Part shown: one piece after another, positions 2,796 to 22,583 of the stretch
Layout of the letters: the number at the start of each line of letters is the position of its first letter
Numbering within the stretch: position 1 is the first letter of the stretch
DNA from: a virus
Virus record (IMG/VR): IMGVR_UViG_3300037088_001114
Span: 1 to 28,969 of that record
Strand: one strand, 5' to 3'
Length of the DNA: 28,969 nucleotides
Program-made: the position numbers and the translations under genes
The notes under the pieces: generated by a model
Seen by the model: only the letters and a program-made list of their open reading frames with translations
The model's database searches: none
Told to the model about the DNA's origin: nothing

Positions 2796-4091
2796 CTAAA
2801 CAAATCTGTTATCAGTTCCTGGTATATCTCTGAATGGGGCTGGGAGGGTTGATCCTCCCATTGCCTCAATATATAGGCGGTCTAAATCCTGGGCCGTCAT
2901 TCTAGACTGCTCTTTTCCAAAGAAGTGCGTATAGAGCGCATATCGCAAGCTATCACAAGCATGGTCCCTGTCTTTCAATGGCTTGTCCTCGCCAGTCTTT
3001 CCACATTTAGGGTCCCACACGTACCCCTGAATCTCTTTGATCAATGATTCGCACTTTCTGCAAATCTTTAATGTCCCATTTGAGAGAAATTTACTCACAA
3101 GTCGAATGCCATCAAGGACTTCATTTTCTGCATCAAATAGGTTAGAAACGCCCTCACGCCCTAGCTCCAGCTTGAAACTAGCTGCTGAAGGGTCAATGTA
3201 TATGGCTTTGATAGGTTTGTCTTTGATGAAGATTTTTAGGTCTTCAGCATATTCTGTATCTGTCTTCTGGCGCTGCTTAACCTTGCTATCCCAGTAGTAG
3301 ACATCCTCCACCCACATATTAGGATATCTGGATCTGTTTATCCCTATAAGAACAAAGGAGCAAGCACAACTCGTACCATAGTCCACCCCCACAATATAAA
3401 ACTCTGCCTGGCCAGGAGGGAAGTCAATAGTGTGAATGGATGTGTCAAAGAAGTCATAAATCGCCCCCTCAGCTTGAACCCATCTACCATCTATAAATCT
3501 CTGGAACCAAATGCCCTTATATTGTCTCTTGAGATAGTCTTTTTCGTCTTCAGTTAGTTCTGGGTTGTCATCAAGGGTGAATTTCCAGCTTTTGACATCA
3601 GGGTTATCTGTCAAAAAGTCTTTCTTCAACCAATGATAAGGGCTATCTGGATTGGTGGTGGCAAAGATTTTAGCACTCTTCATGGCGCATCTGCTAATTA
3701 GCATCCTAAATACGCTTTCTGGAATGATCGTCGCCTCATCAACATAGGCCCCTGAAAATGTAGGGCCCCTTATCTTGGCCTCAGCTCTCTCATCATCAGC
3801 GCCTATAATGTGTATTGTCTTTTTGAAGATGTTCATCTCCCTTTTGCCAGAATAATATCTCACATCCTGGCAGCCAATCATTCTCGTAAGTTGTGGGAGG
3901 AGGTTTCTTTTGAAGGAGTCATAAGTCCTGGTGATCATGCAATATTCACCTGTTGGCCCATAGGTGAGCTCCTTAAGCCACCTCCAAAGACTTATATAGG
4001 TCTTTCCAGAGCGAACAGCCCCTTCCCAGATATTCATCCTTGCGTCTGAATCTTGAAGGGAAAAGAGCTGTTTGTCTGAAAGATTATTCAT
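2796..4091 (-). CDS. terL: Terminase large subunit (packaging ATPase/nuclease)
   Basis: 431 residues from ATG 4091; an extra upstream TTG is less likely because ATG overlaps the preceding TGA (TGATG). The protein powers DNA translocation into the procapsid and cuts concatemers. Visible motifs: Walker A GAVRSGKT at 24-31, Walker B with VDEA at 117-120, coupling motif FATTNPDSP near 143-151, then an RNase H-like nuclease with VGVDYGTS (Asp237), IYIDPS (Asp300) and DHACDSLRY (Asp376/Asp380). Length and motif order fit PBSX/T4-type terminases. It is the last gene of a minus-strand operon and far from the portal, which is on the other strand. Confidence 0.93.
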   Translation of the reverse strand: MNNLSDKQLFSLQDSDARMNIWEGAVRSGKTYISLWRWLKELTYGPTGEYCMITRTYDSFKRNLLPQLTRMIGCQDVRYYSGKREMNIFKKTIHIIGADDERAEAKIRGPTFSGAYVDEATIIPESVFRMLISRCAMKSAKIFATTNPDSPYHWLKKDFLTDNPDVKSWKFTLDDNPELTEDEKDYLKRQYKGIWFQRFIDGRWVQAEGAIYDFFDTSIHTIDFPPGQAEFYIVGVDYGTSCACSFVLIGINRSRYPNMWVEDVYYWDSKVKQRQKTDTEYAEDLKIFIKDKPIKAIYIDPSAASFKLELGREGVSNLFDAENEVLDGIRLVSKFLSNGTLKICRKCESLIKEIQGYVWDPKCGKTGEDKPLKDRDHACDSLRYALYTHFFGKEQSRMTAQDLDRLYIEAMGGSTLPAPFRDIPGTDNRFV

Positions 4092-4576
4092 CAATCATTT
4101 CTCATACAGCAAGACTGAAGGCCAATTCCTACATATATCCCTTTGTTTTCTTTATTCTTTGAACTGTAGATATTTTTGTCTCTACAAGAGTAATTAAATG
4201 ATGAAAAGAACCCATTGTACGGCCTTGGAAGAATGTGTTTTTTGTTGCACCACTCCTCATATTCTTCATAAATCATTGGCTTTTCTATCCTAGATACGTC
4301 ATCAAATACCAATATTTCATTGATAAAGTTTTCGACATCTTGATCAAAGCAGTTAATAATTACTCTCCTTCTCTCTATCCCCCTCTTTCTAGTTCTTTGC
4401 TTTGCTAGCCTTTTCCTAGGGTAAACCTTTCGCTTATTCTCCTGGGCAGGTTCTGGTTTATCAACACAGACATGATGCTCAGGATCTTGACACAAGAAAG
4501 TTAGATGAAAACAGGCGTCAGGAGGGTCTTTGTCCACTCCATTCCATTTAGATTTTATCCAATCAAAAAATCTCAT
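4091..4576 (-). CDS. Unknown protein upstream of the large terminase; primase-C-terminal-like winged-helix end
   Basis: 161 residues, start ATG at 4576 with an excellent AGGAGG site nine bases upstream. The middle is very basic (KRKVYPRKRLAKQRTRKRG). The C-terminal 50 residues (YEEYEEWCNKKHI...FFSSFNYSCRDKNIYSS...GIYVGIGL) resemble the small winged-helix module at the end of D5-like phage primases, a DNA-binding fold. No ATPase or primase motif is present. The stop overlaps the terminase start, implying translational coupling, so a packaging role such as a small-terminase-like DNA-recognition subunit is possible but not shown. Confidence 0.6.
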   Translation of the reverse strand: MRFFDWIKSKWNGVDKDPPDACFHLTFLCQDPEHHVCVDKPEPAQENKRKVYPRKRLAKQRTRKRGIERRRVIINCFDQDVENFINEILVFDDVSRIEKPMIYEEYEEWCNKKHILPRPYNGFFSSFNYSCRDKNIYSSKNKENKGIYVGIGLQSCCMRND

Positions 4577-12995: not shown

Positions 12996-13006
12996 TGTTT
13001 CCAATT

Positions 13007-13078
13007 CTCCTGCTAATGGATTCGAACCACTGACCAACTCGTTAACAGCGAGCTGCTCTACCTCTGAGCTAAGCAGGA
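13007..13078 (-). tRNA. tRNA-Asn (anticodon GUU)
   Basis: On the minus strand the cloverleaf is complete: acceptor TCCTGCT (13078-13072) with AGCAGGA (13014-13008), D arm GCTC/GAGC, anticodon stem GCTCG/CGAGT with loop CTGTTAA, and T arm with GGTTCGAATCC. Discriminator G at 13007; CCA is not encoded. It is nine bases downstream of nothing but the tRNA-Thr gene, within the same minus operon, and probably compensates for codon demand in late genes. Confidence 0.92.
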
Positions 13079-13081
13079 ATA

Positions 13082-13154
13082 TGCTGGAAAAAGGAATCGA
13101 ACCCTTGACAGGCAGTTTACAAAACTGCTGCTCTACCAACTGAGCTATTCCAGC
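13082..13154 (-). tRNA. tRNA-Thr (anticodon UGU)
   Basis: Minus-strand cloverleaf: acceptor GCTGGAA (13154-13148) with TTCCAGC (13089-13083), D arm GCTC/GAGC, anticodon stem GCAGT/ACTGC with loop TTTGTAA, and T arm containing GGTTCGATTCC. CCA is not encoded. It reads ACA codons, which are common in the beta-rich virion genes of this window. It lies directly after the gene at 13155. Confidence 0.93.
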
Positions 13155-14868: not shown

Positions 14869-16974
14869 ATGACTCTCTTTCCCCAACTTTCAGATACTTA
14901 TTATGTTGATAATGACCATAACATCTTAAAGATGATGGACAACACTTACGCTAAGTTCATAACAATTAACCAAAGCTTTTGGAGCGAGAGTGATATCGAC
15001 CACAGATTTGTAGCGGGCGACCAGACGATCTACAACGACATCTATGGCAGCATGCCAGCCTTTCGACGAAGGCAATTCAATTTTAATAGGATGCGTAGAA
15101 TTGTCAACATGATCACAGGGTATCAAAGGCAACACAGAAAAAGCACCATGGTCACGCCTATAGAGCAAGGAGCTCAGCAGACCTCTGATCAATTCACAAA
15201 GCTACTCTATCATGTCAACACTCATGGCAACGTGCTAGAAACGATTTCAGAGGCTTTTGAAGGCGCTGTCATAGGAGGCATGAATCTCCTTTCAACTTAC
15301 ATTGACTACACAGCAGACCCTGTAAATGGGGACATCAAGGTTGACAACGTAGGATACAATGCCTATCTCATCGATCCTTATTTCAAGAAGAAAGACCTAT
15401 CAGATTGCAACGCTCTTTGGACTAGAAAATATTTAACTCGCAATCAGATTATGACATTGCTTCCAGGACGAGAGGATGAAATAAAGAATTTAGCAGGATG
15501 GGGGAATAGAGACGGCAAGTTTATGTTTATGCCAGAGTCTTATGCCTATGGCCAGCAGGACTTAGTTCTCTATGACGAATTCTGGTATATGAGCACTCGA
15601 AGCCAGCAGGTGATAGTTGACACAGAGACTGGCGAGACCATTGAATGGAAGGGCGATGAGGAAGACTTAAGGGATTTCCTTCACATGTATCCTCAGACTA
15701 TTGTCATGAAAAATGAAATCCCTTCTGTAAAACTAGCCATTGTGGTTCAAGGAAAGGTTATGTATCACGGCCCTAACCCTATGGGCATTGATCAATATCC
15801 TTTCGTGCCTGTATGGGCCTATTATATGCCAGAAATACCATATTTTCCTTGGAGAGTCCAGGGCGTAGCTAGAGGCATTAGGGATGCCCAATATCTATAT
15901 AACAGAAGGGTTATCACCTCTCTAGATATCCTCGAGAGCCAAATTAACTCTGGATGGAAATACAAAGAGAATGCACTAGTTAATCCAAAAGACGTATTCA
16001 TGCAAGGACAAGGTCGTGGATTAGCTTTGAGGGCTGAATCTCAAATGACTGACGTAGAGCAGATATTGCCTCCACAGGTTCCACCAAGCATGTTGCAACT
16101 TTCTGAGATGCTTGGTAATGAATTACAACAGATCTCTGGCGTCAATGAAGAGCTTCTAGGCGCTGCTGTAGACGAAAAAGCTGGCATTCTATCTATGTTG
16201 AGGCAGGGGGCAGGCCTAGTGACCCTTCAAGGCTTATTTGATAACCTTGATATGTCTCAAAGGCTTTTGGGCAAGCTTCATCTCGAAATGATTCAGGCCA
16301 ATTGGACTCCTGGCAAGGTGTCGAGGATAATCAACGATGAGCCCTCACAAGAGTTTTACAATAGGGCTTTTAGTAAATACGACTCTGTGGTTGAAGAAGC
16401 ACCTCTTACTGCTACTCAAAAGCAATTAGCTCTTCAACAACGGCTTTACCTGCTTGAAATGGGCGTACCAATACCTATGAGCGATGTTCTAGAGTATGTT
16501 CAATTCAGTGATAAAGACAAAACAATGGAGACCATTCAAAAGCAGCAGGAGCAACAAGAGCAACAAGAGCAAGCTATGGCCCAGGCCCAGATGCAGGCTG
16601 CACAAGTTGATAACGAGACCAAGTTAGGCTTTGCAGATGCGCAACATGCCCAAGCCCAAGAGCGTCTAAATAAAATTAGACTAGACTCAGCAGCGGCTAT
16701 AGAAAAGATTGAGAAGGCCGACACTGATAAGATAGAAGGCGTTTTGAAATTAATACTTGCTTCAAAGCAAATTGAGGGCACAGATATTGACCAGATCATG
16801 AAGGTCATGACACTAATGCATACTCAGGAGCAGGCAAAGCAGATGACAAATATGCAAAACCAGGAATTGCAGATGAAACAGCAGCAGATGGCAGCTTCAC
16901 AGCAACCTCAGCAAGAATCATCGCAAATACCACAGCCACAGCCTCAGCAGCAGCCACAACAAATAGCTCAATAA
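14869..16974 (+). CDS. Portal protein (P22-like)
   Basis: 701 residues from ATG 14869 with CAGG upstream and a promoter 29 bases away. Portals form the dodecameric DNA gate at one capsid vertex and the base for scaffold-directed assembly. N-terminal RRRQFNFNRMRRIVNMITGY and QRQHRKSTMVTP, plus the central YPFVPVWAYYMPEIPYFPWR and VARGIRDAQYLYNRRVITSL, are typical of P22-type portals. The length also agrees. After about residue 560 the sequence becomes a Gln-rich coiled coil (QEQQEQQEQ) like the C-terminal barrel/tail of this family, encoded by tandem GAGCAACAA repeats. Followed by small genes, scaffold and coat. Confidence 0.9.
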   Translation: MTLFPQLSDTYYVDNDHNILKMMDNTYAKFITINQSFWSESDIDHRFVAGDQTIYNDIYGSMPAFRRRQFNFNRMRRIVNMITGYQRQHRKSTMVTPIEQGAQQTSDQFTKLLYHVNTHGNVLETISEAFEGAVIGGMNLLSTYIDYTADPVNGDIKVDNVGYNAYLIDPYFKKKDLSDCNALWTRKYLTRNQIMTLLPGREDEIKNLAGWGNRDGKFMFMPESYAYGQQDLVLYDEFWYMSTRSQQVIVDTETGETIEWKGDEEDLRDFLHMYPQTIVMKNEIPSVKLAIVVQGKVMYHGPNPMGIDQYPFVPVWAYYMPEIPYFPWRVQGVARGIRDAQYLYNRRVITSLDILESQINSGWKYKENALVNPKDVFMQGQGRGLALRAESQMTDVEQILPPQVPPSMLQLSEMLGNELQQISGVNEELLGAAVDEKAGILSMLRQGAGLVTLQGLFDNLDMSQRLLGKLHLEMIQANWTPGKVSRIINDEPSQEFYNRAFSKYDSVVEEAPLTATQKQLALQQRLYLLEMGVPIPMSDVLEYVQFSDKDKTMETIQKQQEQQEQQEQAMAQAQMQAAQVDNETKLGFADAQHAQAQERLNKIRLDSAAAIEKIEKADTDKIEGVLKLILASKQIEGTDIDQIMKVMTLMHTQEQAKQMTNMQNQELQMKQQQMAASQQPQQESSQIPQPQPQQQPQQIAQ

Positions 16975-20282: not shown

Positions 20283-20323
20283 ATCAATAGGCGTAACGAG
20301 GGTCCCTACCCTAAGGAATGCTA

Positions 20324-21037
20324 ATGGCTGAAGAAGTAGAACAGAGCGTGAACCAGGAAGTCGCTCCCCCAACTGAATCAGAACAGCAGGACGTCCTGCA
20401 AGACACCCCTACAGTAGCTCAAGAGCCCCTGATCAGTGATCAAGAGCACAACTGGAGAGAAGCTCGCAGGAAGATGCAAGACCTCGAGCGTCGTGCAGAA
20501 GAACAGCAAGAATTAATTTCAAGATTACAAAATCAACAATCGCAGCCTGTCGAGGAAGACGACTTAGCAAAACTGGCCGATGATGACATTGTCACAGCAA
20601 AGCAGGCAAGGCGCCTAGCAGAAAATATGGCCAGACAAGTTGCTGACGAGGCTATTCGCGAGCGAGAAGCTTCTACTGTTGATGAGCGATTGAAGAATCG
20701 ATTCCCTGACTTTGACGACGTTGTAACTCGAGACAATATAGAAACATTGAAATCACAAGACCCAGAACTAGCAATGTCTTTATATGCCTTGGCGCAAGAT
20801 CCTTACGCCCAGGCCGTTGCAGCCTATAAATTGCTTAAGAAACAGGGGATAGGGGATATGGCAAAATCACAGCCTCAAAAAGCGAAAGCTTTGGAAAACT
20901 CTAGAAAACCTGTTTCAGTCCAAAGTGTGACAAAATCCAGCGCTATAGGCGAAGTGCATAAGTTTGAAAACGGCCTCACACCAGAGCTTCGAAAGGAGTT
21001 ATGGAAGGAAATGCAACAAGCTATCAAGAGTGCTTAG
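20324..21037 (+). CDS. Scaffolding protein
   Basis: 237 residues from ATG 20324 (AAGGA seven bases upstream; an ATG two codons earlier overlaps that site). No enzyme motif; strongly charged and helical: a Glu/Gln/Pro-rich N-terminus, coiled coil REARRKMQDLERRAEEQQEL, then helical segments and a basic C-terminus. Position directly between portal-side genes and the coat gene, plus size and composition, identify it as the assembly scaffold that guides coat polymerisation and then leaves. Identification rests on context more than sequence. Confidence 0.75.
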   Translation: MAEEVEQSVNQEVAPPTESEQQDVLQDTPTVAQEPLISDQEHNWREARRKMQDLERRAEEQQELISRLQNQQSQPVEEDDLAKLADDDIVTAKQARRLAENMARQVADEAIREREASTVDERLKNRFPDFDDVVTRDNIETLKSQDPELAMSLYALAQDPYAQAVAAYKLLKKQGIGDMAKSQPQKAKALENSRKPVSVQSVTKSSAIGEVHKFENGLTPELRKELWKEMQQAIKSA

Positions 21038-21072: not shown

Positions 21073-21636
21073 ATGACTATAACAACGACTGCAACTTTGC
21101 CAGCTCCTGTCCAGCAAAGTTTTAGTTTTAAGTTGCTGTCAGTTCCTGTGCCGTACATGATCCACAAGATCCCAGCCGAACTGAAAGCGATGCCACGTAA
21201 TGGTGGTACGACCCTTCGTATGCGTAGGTATAACCCCCTCGCAACAGCTCCTGTGCCCCTTGGGAATACAGGTGTGACCCCAGCGCCTCAGAATTTGACA
21301 GCGCTGAACATTGACGCACAAATGGATTTTTACGGTACCTACGTATTGCTCAACGAGCAGGTTACCTTACAAAATCAAGATCCTGTTTTAAACGAAGCTG
21401 CTCAGCGTCTTGGTGTCTCCCTTCGTCAAACTGAAGACCAGTTGATGAGAGACATGCTCGCAGGAACAGCGACATTTGCGAACTGTGTTGGTGGTGGTGA
21501 TGGGGATAACCCAACAGAAATCACTCGCACAGACGTAGACTTCGTTGTCAGAACGCTACGTGGGAATAATGCGTTAACGAAACTAGCGCATTCAAAATCT
21601 TTGGTAATTGACTTGGAGGTCCTTCAAGCTGCATAA
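21073..21636 (+). CDS. Exon 1 of the coat gene read into intron 1 (truncated product)
   Basis: Contiguous frame of 187 residues. Residues 1-167 are the coat N-terminus (for example AELKAMPRNGGTTLRMRRYN). The last 20 residues come from intron 1 and include KSLVIDLE, a phrase that also appears after exon 2 (KSLVIDLELLAA) only because the two introns share sequence there. The intron stop codon is 21634-21636. Confidence 0.6.
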   Translation: MTITTTATLPAPVQQSFSFKLLSVPVPYMIHKIPAELKAMPRNGGTTLRMRRYNPLATAPVPLGNTGVTPAPQNLTALNIDAQMDFYGTYVLLNEQVTLQNQDPVLNEAAQRLGVSLRQTEDQLMRDMLAGTATFANCVGGGDGDNPTEITRTDVDFVVRTLRGNNALTKLAHSKSLVIDLEVLQAA

Positions 21637-22583
21637 GCTGAGGATAACAAGGGGCAAGCGAAAGCAGCCTGAACGACTAAACCCAGAGACCCCTTCGGGG
21701 GATTCGATAGTCTGAACCACGACTATATATAAAATCGTGGAGGATAGGCCGAAGAGCCTTTCCCGCTTACCAAAAGTTGCGAATAAAAGCTATGGATACA
21801 CTGATAATTAAAAAAATAAGACTAGCCATGAAAAGGCATGAAAAAAAATTTTCCATATAATCCCTCTTTTGTAAGTCTTAAAAGTAACAGAATTGATAGT
21901 TTTCTTACAGGCGTCGAAGGCGAAAATAGATTTGGAACCGCGCCTAAAACGTATGGGCGCGTTAAATCTTTGGTAATTGACTTGGAACTCCTCGCGGCAT
22001 AGGCCAAGGACAACAAGGGGCAAGCGAAAGCAGCCTGAACGACTAAACCCAGAGACACCTGACAAAGGTGATTTGATAGTCTGATCTCATAGGCAACTAT
22101 GAGAGGGTGGATCGAAGAATCCGCCCCGCCAACTATAAGGAAATTCCTAACAGTTGGTCACATAAGTAACAGAATTAAAAAAAAATGGTACGCGATTCTT
22201 ACTTTGGCCTTGGCCACACTAACCTAATTGGTCAGTTGGACAACGTCAATGGATTCATTCAAAAATGGAACTATCCAAATCAACAAAGCACATTAGATGC
22301 AGAATGGGGAACAGTTGCCAACGTTAGATTCTTACTATCTAGCATTGGTTCTGTAACTCCTAATGCTTCTATGCTTGGGGCTGATGTCTACAACATATTC
22401 TGTGTAGGGCGTGAGTCCTTCGCAGCTATTGAACAAGATGGATATTCTGCACAGTTTATCTATCGACCACCCATCTATGATGGGCCACTAGCCCTTAACG
22501 CAAGTGTAGGGTATAAATTCGCTGAAGTACCTAGAATACTCAACGATCAATGGCTTCTAAACTTACGATGCACTTTGGCATAA
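21073..22583 (+). CDS. Major capsid protein, gene split by two group I introns
   Basis: Proposed join: 21073-21574, 21896-21945 and 22188-22583, giving 315 residues. Exon 1 ends ...VVRTLRGNNA plus one base; the split codon T|AT is Tyr; exon 2 encodes SFLTGVEGENRFGTAP; exon 3 continues VRDSYFGLGHTNLIGQL. The restored junction G.GTAPVRDSYFG matches the G.GT(S/A)P(I/V)R.SYVG signature of N4-gp56-family coats, with the usual 13-residue distance from the NNA motif. The protein would assemble the HK97-fold shell around the scaffold. The start ATG lacks an obvious ribosome site. Unspliced message gives a 187-residue truncated product. Confidence 0.85.
21575..21895 (+). ncRNA. Group I intron 1 in the coat gene
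   Basis: 321 nt. P1: exon AATGCGT (21568-21574) pairs with GCGCATT (21586-21592), the last exon U opposite G. P10: AAACTA just before it pairs with TAGTTT at the start of exon 2. P7: GACTA (21675-21679) with TAGTC (21708-21712). P8 CCCC-TTCG-GGGG, P9 CCACGA/TCGTGG (21717-21722, 21735-21740) and AGGC-CGAAGA-GCCT follow. The GAAA-capped P5 sits in a 45-base block identical to intron 2. The last base is G (21895). A 3' extension contains only a 22-codon frame, so no homing endonuclease is encoded. Confidence 0.85.
21896..21945 (+). other. 50-nt internal exon of the coat gene
   Basis: Lies between the two introns and encodes the second and third bases of a Tyr codon plus SFLTGVEGENRFGTAP. Its first bases serve as P10 partner for intron 1 and its last seven (CGCGCCT) as P1 partner for intron 2, so nearly half the exon is involved in splice-site recognition. 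Confidence 0.8.
21946..22187 (+). ncRNA. Group I intron 2 in the coat gene
   Basis: 242 nt. P1: exon CGCGCCT (21939-21945) pairs with GGGCGCG (21955-21961), U-G at the splice site. P10: CGTAT before it pairs with GTACG, the first five bases of exon 3. P7 GACTA/TAGTC at 22041-22045 and 22077-22081; P8 CACCT/AGGTG; P9 CTCATAG-GCAA-CTATGAG; GGAT-CGAAGA-ATCC; and CCAACT/AGTTGG near the 3' end. Each differs in sequence from intron 1 but keeps pairing. Terminal G at 22187. No ORF. Confidence 0.85.
22188..22583 (+). CDS. Exon 3 of the coat gene
   Basis: 131 codons plus stop. An ATG at 22185-22187 makes it look like a separate 132-residue gene, but there is no ribosome site before it (only an A run) and the ATG overlaps the intron's terminal G. 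The sequence (VRDSYFGLGHTNL, then GRESFAAIEQDGYSAQFIYR) is the C-terminal 40% of the coat protein. Confidence 0.7.
   Translation, partial: VRDSYFGLGHTNLIGQLDNVNGFIQKWNYPNQQSTLDAEWGTVANVRFLLSSIGSVTPNASMLGADVYNIFCVGRESFAAIEQDGYSAQFIYRPPIYDGPLALNASVGYKFAEVPRILNDQWLLNLRCTLA

Follow-up and report, generated by a model that had tools for sequence, protein, structure and literature searches.

The stretch of DNA analysed here (hereafter the window) is the IMG/VR virus record IMGVR_UViG_3300037088_001114, which is 28,969 bases long, is classed as linear and is possibly a fragment. According to the reading-frame analysis of the window, its coat gene (21073-22583) is open only when two stretches are cut out of it. 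The question raised by this locus is what the two stretches are and how a coat protein would be made from such a gene. The first-pass annotation, made from the sequence, had proposed two group I introns on either side of a very short exon. This observation is correct, and the reading of the two stretches as ribozymes is very likely. We consider it almost certain, from the sequence evidence, that the coat gene is split by two complete, compact group I introns, which would excise themselves to leave the mRNA of a 315-residue coat of the N4-gp56 family. The features of the locus are collected in Table 1.

Table 1. Positions in the window of the coat exons, of the two introns with their parts, and of two further phage genes
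Feature	Position	Strand	Basis
Terminase	2796-4094	-	Pfam/PHROGs searches
Portal	14869-16974		Pfam/PHROGs searches
Coat exon 1, 502 nt	21073-21574	+	frame reconstruction, profile match
P1 exon strand, intron 1 (guide 21586-21592, U.G at splice site)	21568-21574	+	sequence
Group I intron 1, 321 nt, CDS position 502	21575-21895	+	frame, model R1, splice-site mapping
P10 strand, intron 1 (partner exon 2 nt 21897-21903)	21579-21585	+	sequence
Intron 1 core, P3-P8 and start of P9	21597-21740	+	R1, 114.1 bits
P7 5' strand, intron 1 (3' strand 21708-21712)	21675-21679	+	sequence, alignments
Coat exon 2, 50 nt, codons 168-184	21896-21945	+	frame and alignment to relatives
P1 exon strand, intron 2 (guide 21955-21961, U.G at splice site)	21939-21945	+	sequence
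Group I intron 2, 242 nt, CDS position 552	21946-22187	+	frame, model R1, splice-site mapping
P10 strand, intron 2 (partner exon 3 nt 22188-22192)	21950-21954	+	sequence
Intron 2 core, P3-P8 and start of P9	21966-22109	+	R1, 113.8 bits
P7 5' strand, intron 2 (3' strand 22077-22081)	22041-22045	+	sequence, alignments
Coat exon 3 including stop codon, 396 nt	22188-22583	+	frame reconstruction, profile match

Anatomy and Product of the Coat Gene

Joining of the three exons (502 + 50 + 396 nt, sizes that had been given correctly in the first-pass annotation) resulted in one open frame of 315 residues. The spliced coat matched the NCBIfam model TIGR04387 (N4-gp56 major capsid) at 8.7e-45 with 153.4 bits (cut-off 60); the two unspliced pieces, taken separately, matched it at 5.8e-25 and 7.5e-14. 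A match to phrog_1357 at 1.5e-29 was obtained for the spliced coat in the PHROGs search. The first coat piece reached no more than a sub-cut-off match in Pfam, to Phage_capsid_4, and a search of the window record with PF13252 gave no match, the controls being equally silent. In the alignment to related coats that the annotation had proposed as a check, 59 of the 62 intronless (single-piece) relatives aligned to the spliced window coat without a gap. The junction residues Y168 and V185 were kept in 56/62 and 59/62 of these relatives, respectively.

Exons 2 and 3 are located 3' of in-frame stops in the unspliced RNA. Selection on the exons was analyzed by comparison with a related coat gene (L001), which shares 77.5% DNA identity with the window over the coat coding sequence. 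A dN/dS of 0.046 was obtained in exon 1, of 0.045 in exon 2 and of 0.037 in exon 3, with synonymous sites near saturation and dS not computable for several comparisons; exon 2 contributes 17 codons, in which 7 changes are synonymous and 2 nonsynonymous. By these values, purifying selection acts on all three coat exons, also downstream of the intron stop codons.

Splice-Site Pairings

At both 5' splice sites a 7-bp P1 closes in a U.G pair. P10 comprises 7 bp in intron 1 and 5 bp in intron 2, and the last base is G in both introns, so that the three features by which the introns had originally been defined are all present in each of them. P1 runs of at least 6 occurred at 3.9% (444/11,399) of control T positions, a background to be read together with the weight that the junction finder itself gave to P1 and with the fact that both window sites had been named beforehand. 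The P10 strand of intron 1 pairs 7 nt with its own 3' exon and 2 nt with that of the other intron; the corresponding numbers for intron 2 are 5 and 3. Folding of the regions after P7 was beyond that of dinucleotide shuffles in the two window introns (z of -2.97 and -6.59), as was folding of the two P1 regions (z of -3.32 and -2.19).

The short exon had been proposed to serve splice-site pairing for both introns, and it does so through separate segments. Nucleotides 2-8 of exon 2 are the partner in P10 of intron 1, and its last 7 nt are the partner in P1 of intron 2. Since different parts of the 50-nt exon serve the two introns, the two pairings do not compete.

On the basis of these pairings, guanosine would attack the 5' splice site held in P1 by the U.G pair. 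The freed exon would then attack after the terminal G, with P10 aligning the 3' exon for joining. Both introns would leave the late mRNA in this manner to give a single message for the coat.

No ORF of more than 70 codons, and no homing endonuclease ORF, was found on the + strand of either window intron. Without a recognisable endonuclease gene, each of the two resembles a reduced form of a once mobile intron, and the mobile ancestors look like the kind that repeatedly colonises the coat gene in related phages.

Identification as Group I Introns

Rfam release 15, whose models cover the general group I family, gave no group I match in the window, either at the gathering threshold or at E up to 10, and no match in six other loci of the intron family, L112 and L103 among them. 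A family model was therefore built. Viral contigs were scanned for a 29-base core pattern, which was found in at least 119 stretches. The model R1 and the alignment A1 were made from 52 non-redundant cores of other phages, the window and the identical locus L140 being left out. R1 matched the window in exactly two places (E of 2.2e-33 and 2.8e-33), with no others at E up to 10. The covariance search proposed in the annotation was thus negative with Rfam and positive, at both introns, with the family-built model. The silence of Rfam reflects a gap in library coverage rather than a missing defining trait.

The paired cells in A1 amounted to 97.5%, as against 38-47% when slid, and pairing as high was reached in 0 of 500 shuffles. 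Changes on both sides were found in 15 of the 30 pairs (P3, 7/7; P8, 4/4; P5, 3/4; P4, 1/4). P6 and P7 are invariant in A1 because the search pattern and the filter on the 3' strand of P7 fixed parts of them. In A2, P6 and P7 vary with compensation; its 33 matches are fitted to the model, which calls for caution, but P7 is not part of that model. P7 in A2 is GACUA/UAGUC, with GACUG/CAGUC in 4 rows, GAGCA/UGCUC in 1 and GACUU/AAGUC in 1, two ORF-bearing rows being misaligned at P7. The P3-P8 core with the P3/P7 pseudoknot is present in the family and is supported by compensatory changes. It was also seen by eye that columns 10 and 85 of A1, which immediately precede P4 and follow P7, respectively, tend to change together (G/G, A/A); such a co-change without Watson-Crick pairing is perhaps a tertiary contact.

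The Coat Gene as an Intron Hotspot

R1 was run on the whole of the best 80 of 137 coat-similar records, 1,480,693 bases in all. A match was found in 20 of these 80 coat-selected records, and 36 of the 38 R1 places fall inside the coat gene by coordinates. Counted by lineage, the coat gene holds 14 of 15 introns, and uninterrupted coat genes would account for 5.1% of the bases; a rough binomial for this enrichment, with the lineages grouped by eye, is 1e-17. Splice-site mapping gave at least 20 distinct intron positions in the coding sequence when coats sharing about 65% identity or above are counted, and about six further positions in distant coats. Several coat genes have 2-5 introns, five being the maximum. 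The coat gene of this clade is, by these maps, an intron hotspot. The rarity that the first-pass annotation had ascribed to a twice-interrupted coat gene is not supported within this phage group.

A P1 run of at least 6 was present in 32 of 32 mapped introns (near-duplicates counted) versus 3.9% of the controls, P1 having had weight when these introns were chosen. The introns of L133 and L199 at 899, where P1 is only 3 bp, were left out of the P1 counts, and the L199 site was moved by eye to near 887.

The largest number of introns was found in L205 (JAJFUZ010000398.1, 3590-6877), in which five coat introns are located at 38, 143, 432, 502 and 831. Position 502 is also that of window intron 1, and the spliced L205 coat has 316 residues with 266 identities. 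Three introns, at 23, 38 and 920, interrupt the coat gene of L070 (1546-4379); the exon that separates those at 23 and 38 measures 15 nt, and the spliced coat has 315 residues. A full-length coat was obtained after splicing in 19 of 27 loci. The spliced coats of L072, L074, L115, L125 and L134 stop at an insert at codon 88, which is described below. Other incomplete cases are L152, with a frameshift near codon 125, and L175, a partial contig; L199 was spliced with its second intron left in place.

Kinship of the Introns

The two window introns could be the closest relatives of each other, copied within the gene. A 34-row tree united them at 98/96, and a 67-row tree united them with a support of 72. 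In a 44-row tree with ten introns added (the L204 intron at 143 being absent), however, the L205 intron at the shared position 502 and three further introns joined intron 1 in a group with 99/98 support, and the L205 intron at 831 came out as the partner of intron 2 (98/90). The sister relationship, strong in 34 rows and weak in 67, is gone with the 44 better-chosen rows, and we rejected it as improbable. Site labels on the 44-row tree required 30 changes, as compared with a mean of 36.8 and a minimum of 34 in 200 shuffles; genome labels required 37 changes, as compared with 37.5 when shuffled. On this tree, the introns track site more than genome, as would be expected for homing or for descent at a site.

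Among the relatives, ORFs were found within the longer introns, and their location in the P6 loop is the clearest. These ORFs are LAGLIDADG-like, some of them antisense, or small and Cys-rich. The LAGLIDADG cut-off of Pfam was passed by one of ten intron ORFs of the relatives, and 3 more were weak matches. LAGLIDADG-like ORFs antisense to the coat gene were seen in the introns at 312/314 of L074, L125, L134 and L199, and small Cys-rich ORFs fill the P6 loop in introns of L065, L071 and L070. The L152 introns at 192 and 783 have nearly the same core and P6 ORF, and they are unresolved on the 44-row tree.

Alternative Explanations for the Window

The window record is linear and possibly partial, and the interrupted gene might be non-functional or misassembled, with the coat made from another locus. 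A second record, of 39,337 bases, contains L140, which matches the window with 100% identity along 8,555 nt, a stretch that takes in the two introns, although the samples are possibly not independent. An intact second coat gene was one of the findings that the annotation had named as counting against it; no other coat gene was found in the 39,337 bases of this record at E up to 10. With purifying selection in every exon as well, a relic or an artefact is hardly credible. It is less far-fetched, but still rather unlikely, that a substantial fraction of the transcripts skips exon 2, with exon 1 joined directly to exon 3. Such exon skipping is known from Twort orf142 and SIOphi (PMC11878797), and the conserved core is common to both window introns. 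In the window gene, however, skipping would shift the frame and lead to a stop after 178 residues, and intron 1 has a P10 strand that can pair over 7 nt with exon 2 but over no more than 2 nt with exon 3.

It was also considered that the yield of coat is limited by how efficiently the introns are spliced, and that this yield varies with GTP, Mg, host state or translation of the pre-mRNA. An unspliced coat mRNA would give a truncated product of 187 residues, and environmental sensing is one proposed, though unproven, role of phage introns (PMC11878797). On the other hand, the 59 single-piece relatives with gap-free alignment have no intron, the intron positions vary among relatives, and the variation of the core is mostly compensatory. 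These facts suggest elements that come and go and not a conserved switch. A regulatory role of the window introns seems highly improbable, and the tie of coat output to GTP, Mg or host state, as first suggested, is unsupported. We retain the reading that two group I introns, very likely self-splicing and probably of no regulatory significance, interrupt the coat gene.

Core-less Mini-inserts after Codon 88

Short inserts were found in relatives of the window, not in the window itself, after coat codon 88 (CDS 264). The first seven loci had inserts of 38-56 nt with stops, L072/L073 and L125/L177 being near-duplicates. A coat-specific pattern scan for such inserts gave 98 stretches, and the P1-compensated pattern TAT/ATA gave 4; the mismatched pattern TAC/ATA, the sole mismatch version scanned, gave 0. 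Pooling resulted in 83 distinct mini-inserts of 28-59 nt from 104 loci, with L250, which has a long intron at 264, left out of the counts. A terminal G is present in all 83, read-through runs into a stop in 80, and the length is not a multiple of three in 65. Opposite the third position of the Thr89 codon, 82 of 83 inserts carry the base that forms a Watson-Crick pair with it (36.6 expected if independent), L312 being the exception to this P10 rule. P1 was set by the scan pattern, while the third base of P10 and the last base were free. P1, P10 and the terminal G are kept in the mini-inserts under sequence change. Since 28-59 nt is too short, no catalytic core fits within them.

A second break of the coat frame lies 26-86 nt 3' of the insert in 82 of 82 readable cases. 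Its positions are about 290 (58 cases), 312 (5), 314 (14) and 350 (5); for the first of these classes the automatic finder spread the next splice site over 278-306, and the value of 290 was taken from those loci in which a P1 could be recognised. A full R1 core begins within about 140 nt 3' of the insert in the eight loci checked by coordinates (L115, L220, L307, L235, L227, L255, L239 and L232). A helix between the 3' half of the insert and the exon, which we call PX, has a run of at least 7 in 70 of 82 cases. In 69 of these 70, a distance of 7-9 nt separates the end of PX from the following 5' splice site, though that site varies. Since the exon of the 290 class is just 26 nt long, the 312, 314 and 350 classes are the informative ones. 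Within the 290 class, PX is in register at exon nucleotides 10-18 in 47 of 58 inserts, and a run of at least 7 is absent in 12 of 58. Five of the nine PX pairs of this class vary strongly yet pair, for example in 47/47 rows versus a shuffled mean of 25.4, the 47 in-register rows having been picked for at least 7/9 paired and being biased towards pairing. When own exons were compared with swapped ones, separation was partial in the 314 class (13/14 versus 0.35) and absent in the small 350 class (2/5 versus 0.40). These swaps, like the 12 inserts that lack a PX run and the L312 exception, speak against the mini-intron reading.

Two other interpretations of the mini-inserts were rejected. An in-frame protein insertion at codon 88 (L074, L115, L125, L134, L177, L072/L073) does not agree with the stops and the intron-like ends. 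Translational bypass of the T4 gene 60 type does not agree with the insert ends, 0 of 83 of which are GGN, the take-off codon being GGT. The start of the long intron of L250 at 264 resembles the mini-inserts, and this intron is possibly their ancestor.

We favour, with moderate confidence, the interpretation that the mini-inserts are natural core-less group I mini-introns, excised via PX by the core of the next full intron. The mini-intron would have kept the features of a substrate, namely P1, P10 and the terminal G. Catalysis would be lent by the full intron that follows at a distance of 26, 48-50 or 86 nt. PX would bring this core near by pairing the insert with the exon just ahead of the 5' splice site of the neighbour.

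Gene Neighbourhood and Hosts

The protein encoded just upstream of the coat (20318-21037) has no Pfam or PHROGs match and occupies the usual place of the scaffold gene. Adjacent genes for tRNA-Asn(GTT) and tRNA-Thr(TGT) were noted on the minus strand at 13006-13154 of the window. Named phages reach up to 28% coat identity among the matches listed.

In one genome collection, the coat was found in 3 loci, two of them within Chlamydiota bins. It was present in 8 of 232 Chlamydiota genomes versus 1 of 228 genomes of another phylum, that one being the query genome. Removal of the already-known genomes left 6/230 versus 0/227 (p 0.03). With stricter filters, R1 introns were found in 4 of 232 Chlamydiota genomes, always on the coat contig. 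The hosts of the clade are perhaps Chlamydiota, the presence of phage-length contigs in a bin being weak evidence of a host. L203-L211 are phage-sized contigs with the window type of coat in Chlamydiota bins, L205 being binned as Parachlamydia, and they are possibly tailed phages of amoeba-dwelling Chlamydiota.

Comparison with Known Systems

Group I introns in phage capsid genes, several per capsid gene and with small exons, have been published (PMC3706429, PMC7886860, PMC11878797), as have exon skipping between phage introns (PMC11878797) and intron-packed phages (PMC12363816). In LittleE, of the cluster J mycobacteriophages, a group I-like intron interrupts the gene of the most abundant virion protein (PMC3706429). 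Splicing was demonstrated there by RT-PCR and N-terminal sequencing. LittleE has one intron with a bottom-strand endonuclease ORF, whereas the window has two introns without such an ORF, and the coat contexts are unrelated (PMC3706429). The MCP gene of the crAss-like Zeta phages is in five pieces, with group I domains in three of the four gaps (PMC7886860). These are large gut phages whose introns were recognised by endonuclease domains (PMC7886860), while the introns of the window clade are mostly 200-800 nt long, in phages of about 39 kb, with base-exact sites. Twort orf142 and phiNIT1/SIOphi combine several group I introns per gene, a small exon and exon skipping (PMC11878797). These introns lie in other genes, and this source raises the question why the introns of its phages have settled only in genes of nucleotide and DNA metabolism, whereas the coat gene is targeted in the window clade. 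The Jug phages have 2,513 compact introns with a mean of about 206 nt, of which metatranscriptome reads support 37 of 76 tested (PMC12363816). The split genes named in the part of that paper considered here are terL, nrdD and polymerase genes, not the coat (PMC12363816).

The window by itself indicates that two ribozymes are affordable to a phage even in the gene whose product is most in demand. Its clade amounts to an experiment set up by nature, with a 948-nt gene, many intron positions, intron-free alleles, and copies with and without endonuclease genes. It makes the spread of endonuclease-free group I introns to new sites directly testable; for the reverse-splicing route, direct evidence is lacking according to the review PMC3984707.

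The clade-wide hotspot together with the mini-introns is a stronger result than the window alone. Introns in N4-gp56 coat genes and core-less group I mini-introns were not found in the open-licence literature searched, nor was a natural group I core serving another intron. The closest likeness is to the spliceozymes, engineered group I ribozymes that excise introns in trans (PMC4094466); the likeness lies in a core that acts on a foreign intron, and the spliceozymes are laboratory constructs. Should the core-less mini-introns prove real, they would be a case of a self-splicing intron that has come to depend on the ribozyme of its neighbour, a step long imagined towards splicing by shared machinery. 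The group III introns of Euglena are degenerate group II introns, likewise served by a core not their own. As a non-autonomous form, the mini-intron would then stand to group I introns as group III introns stand to group II introns.
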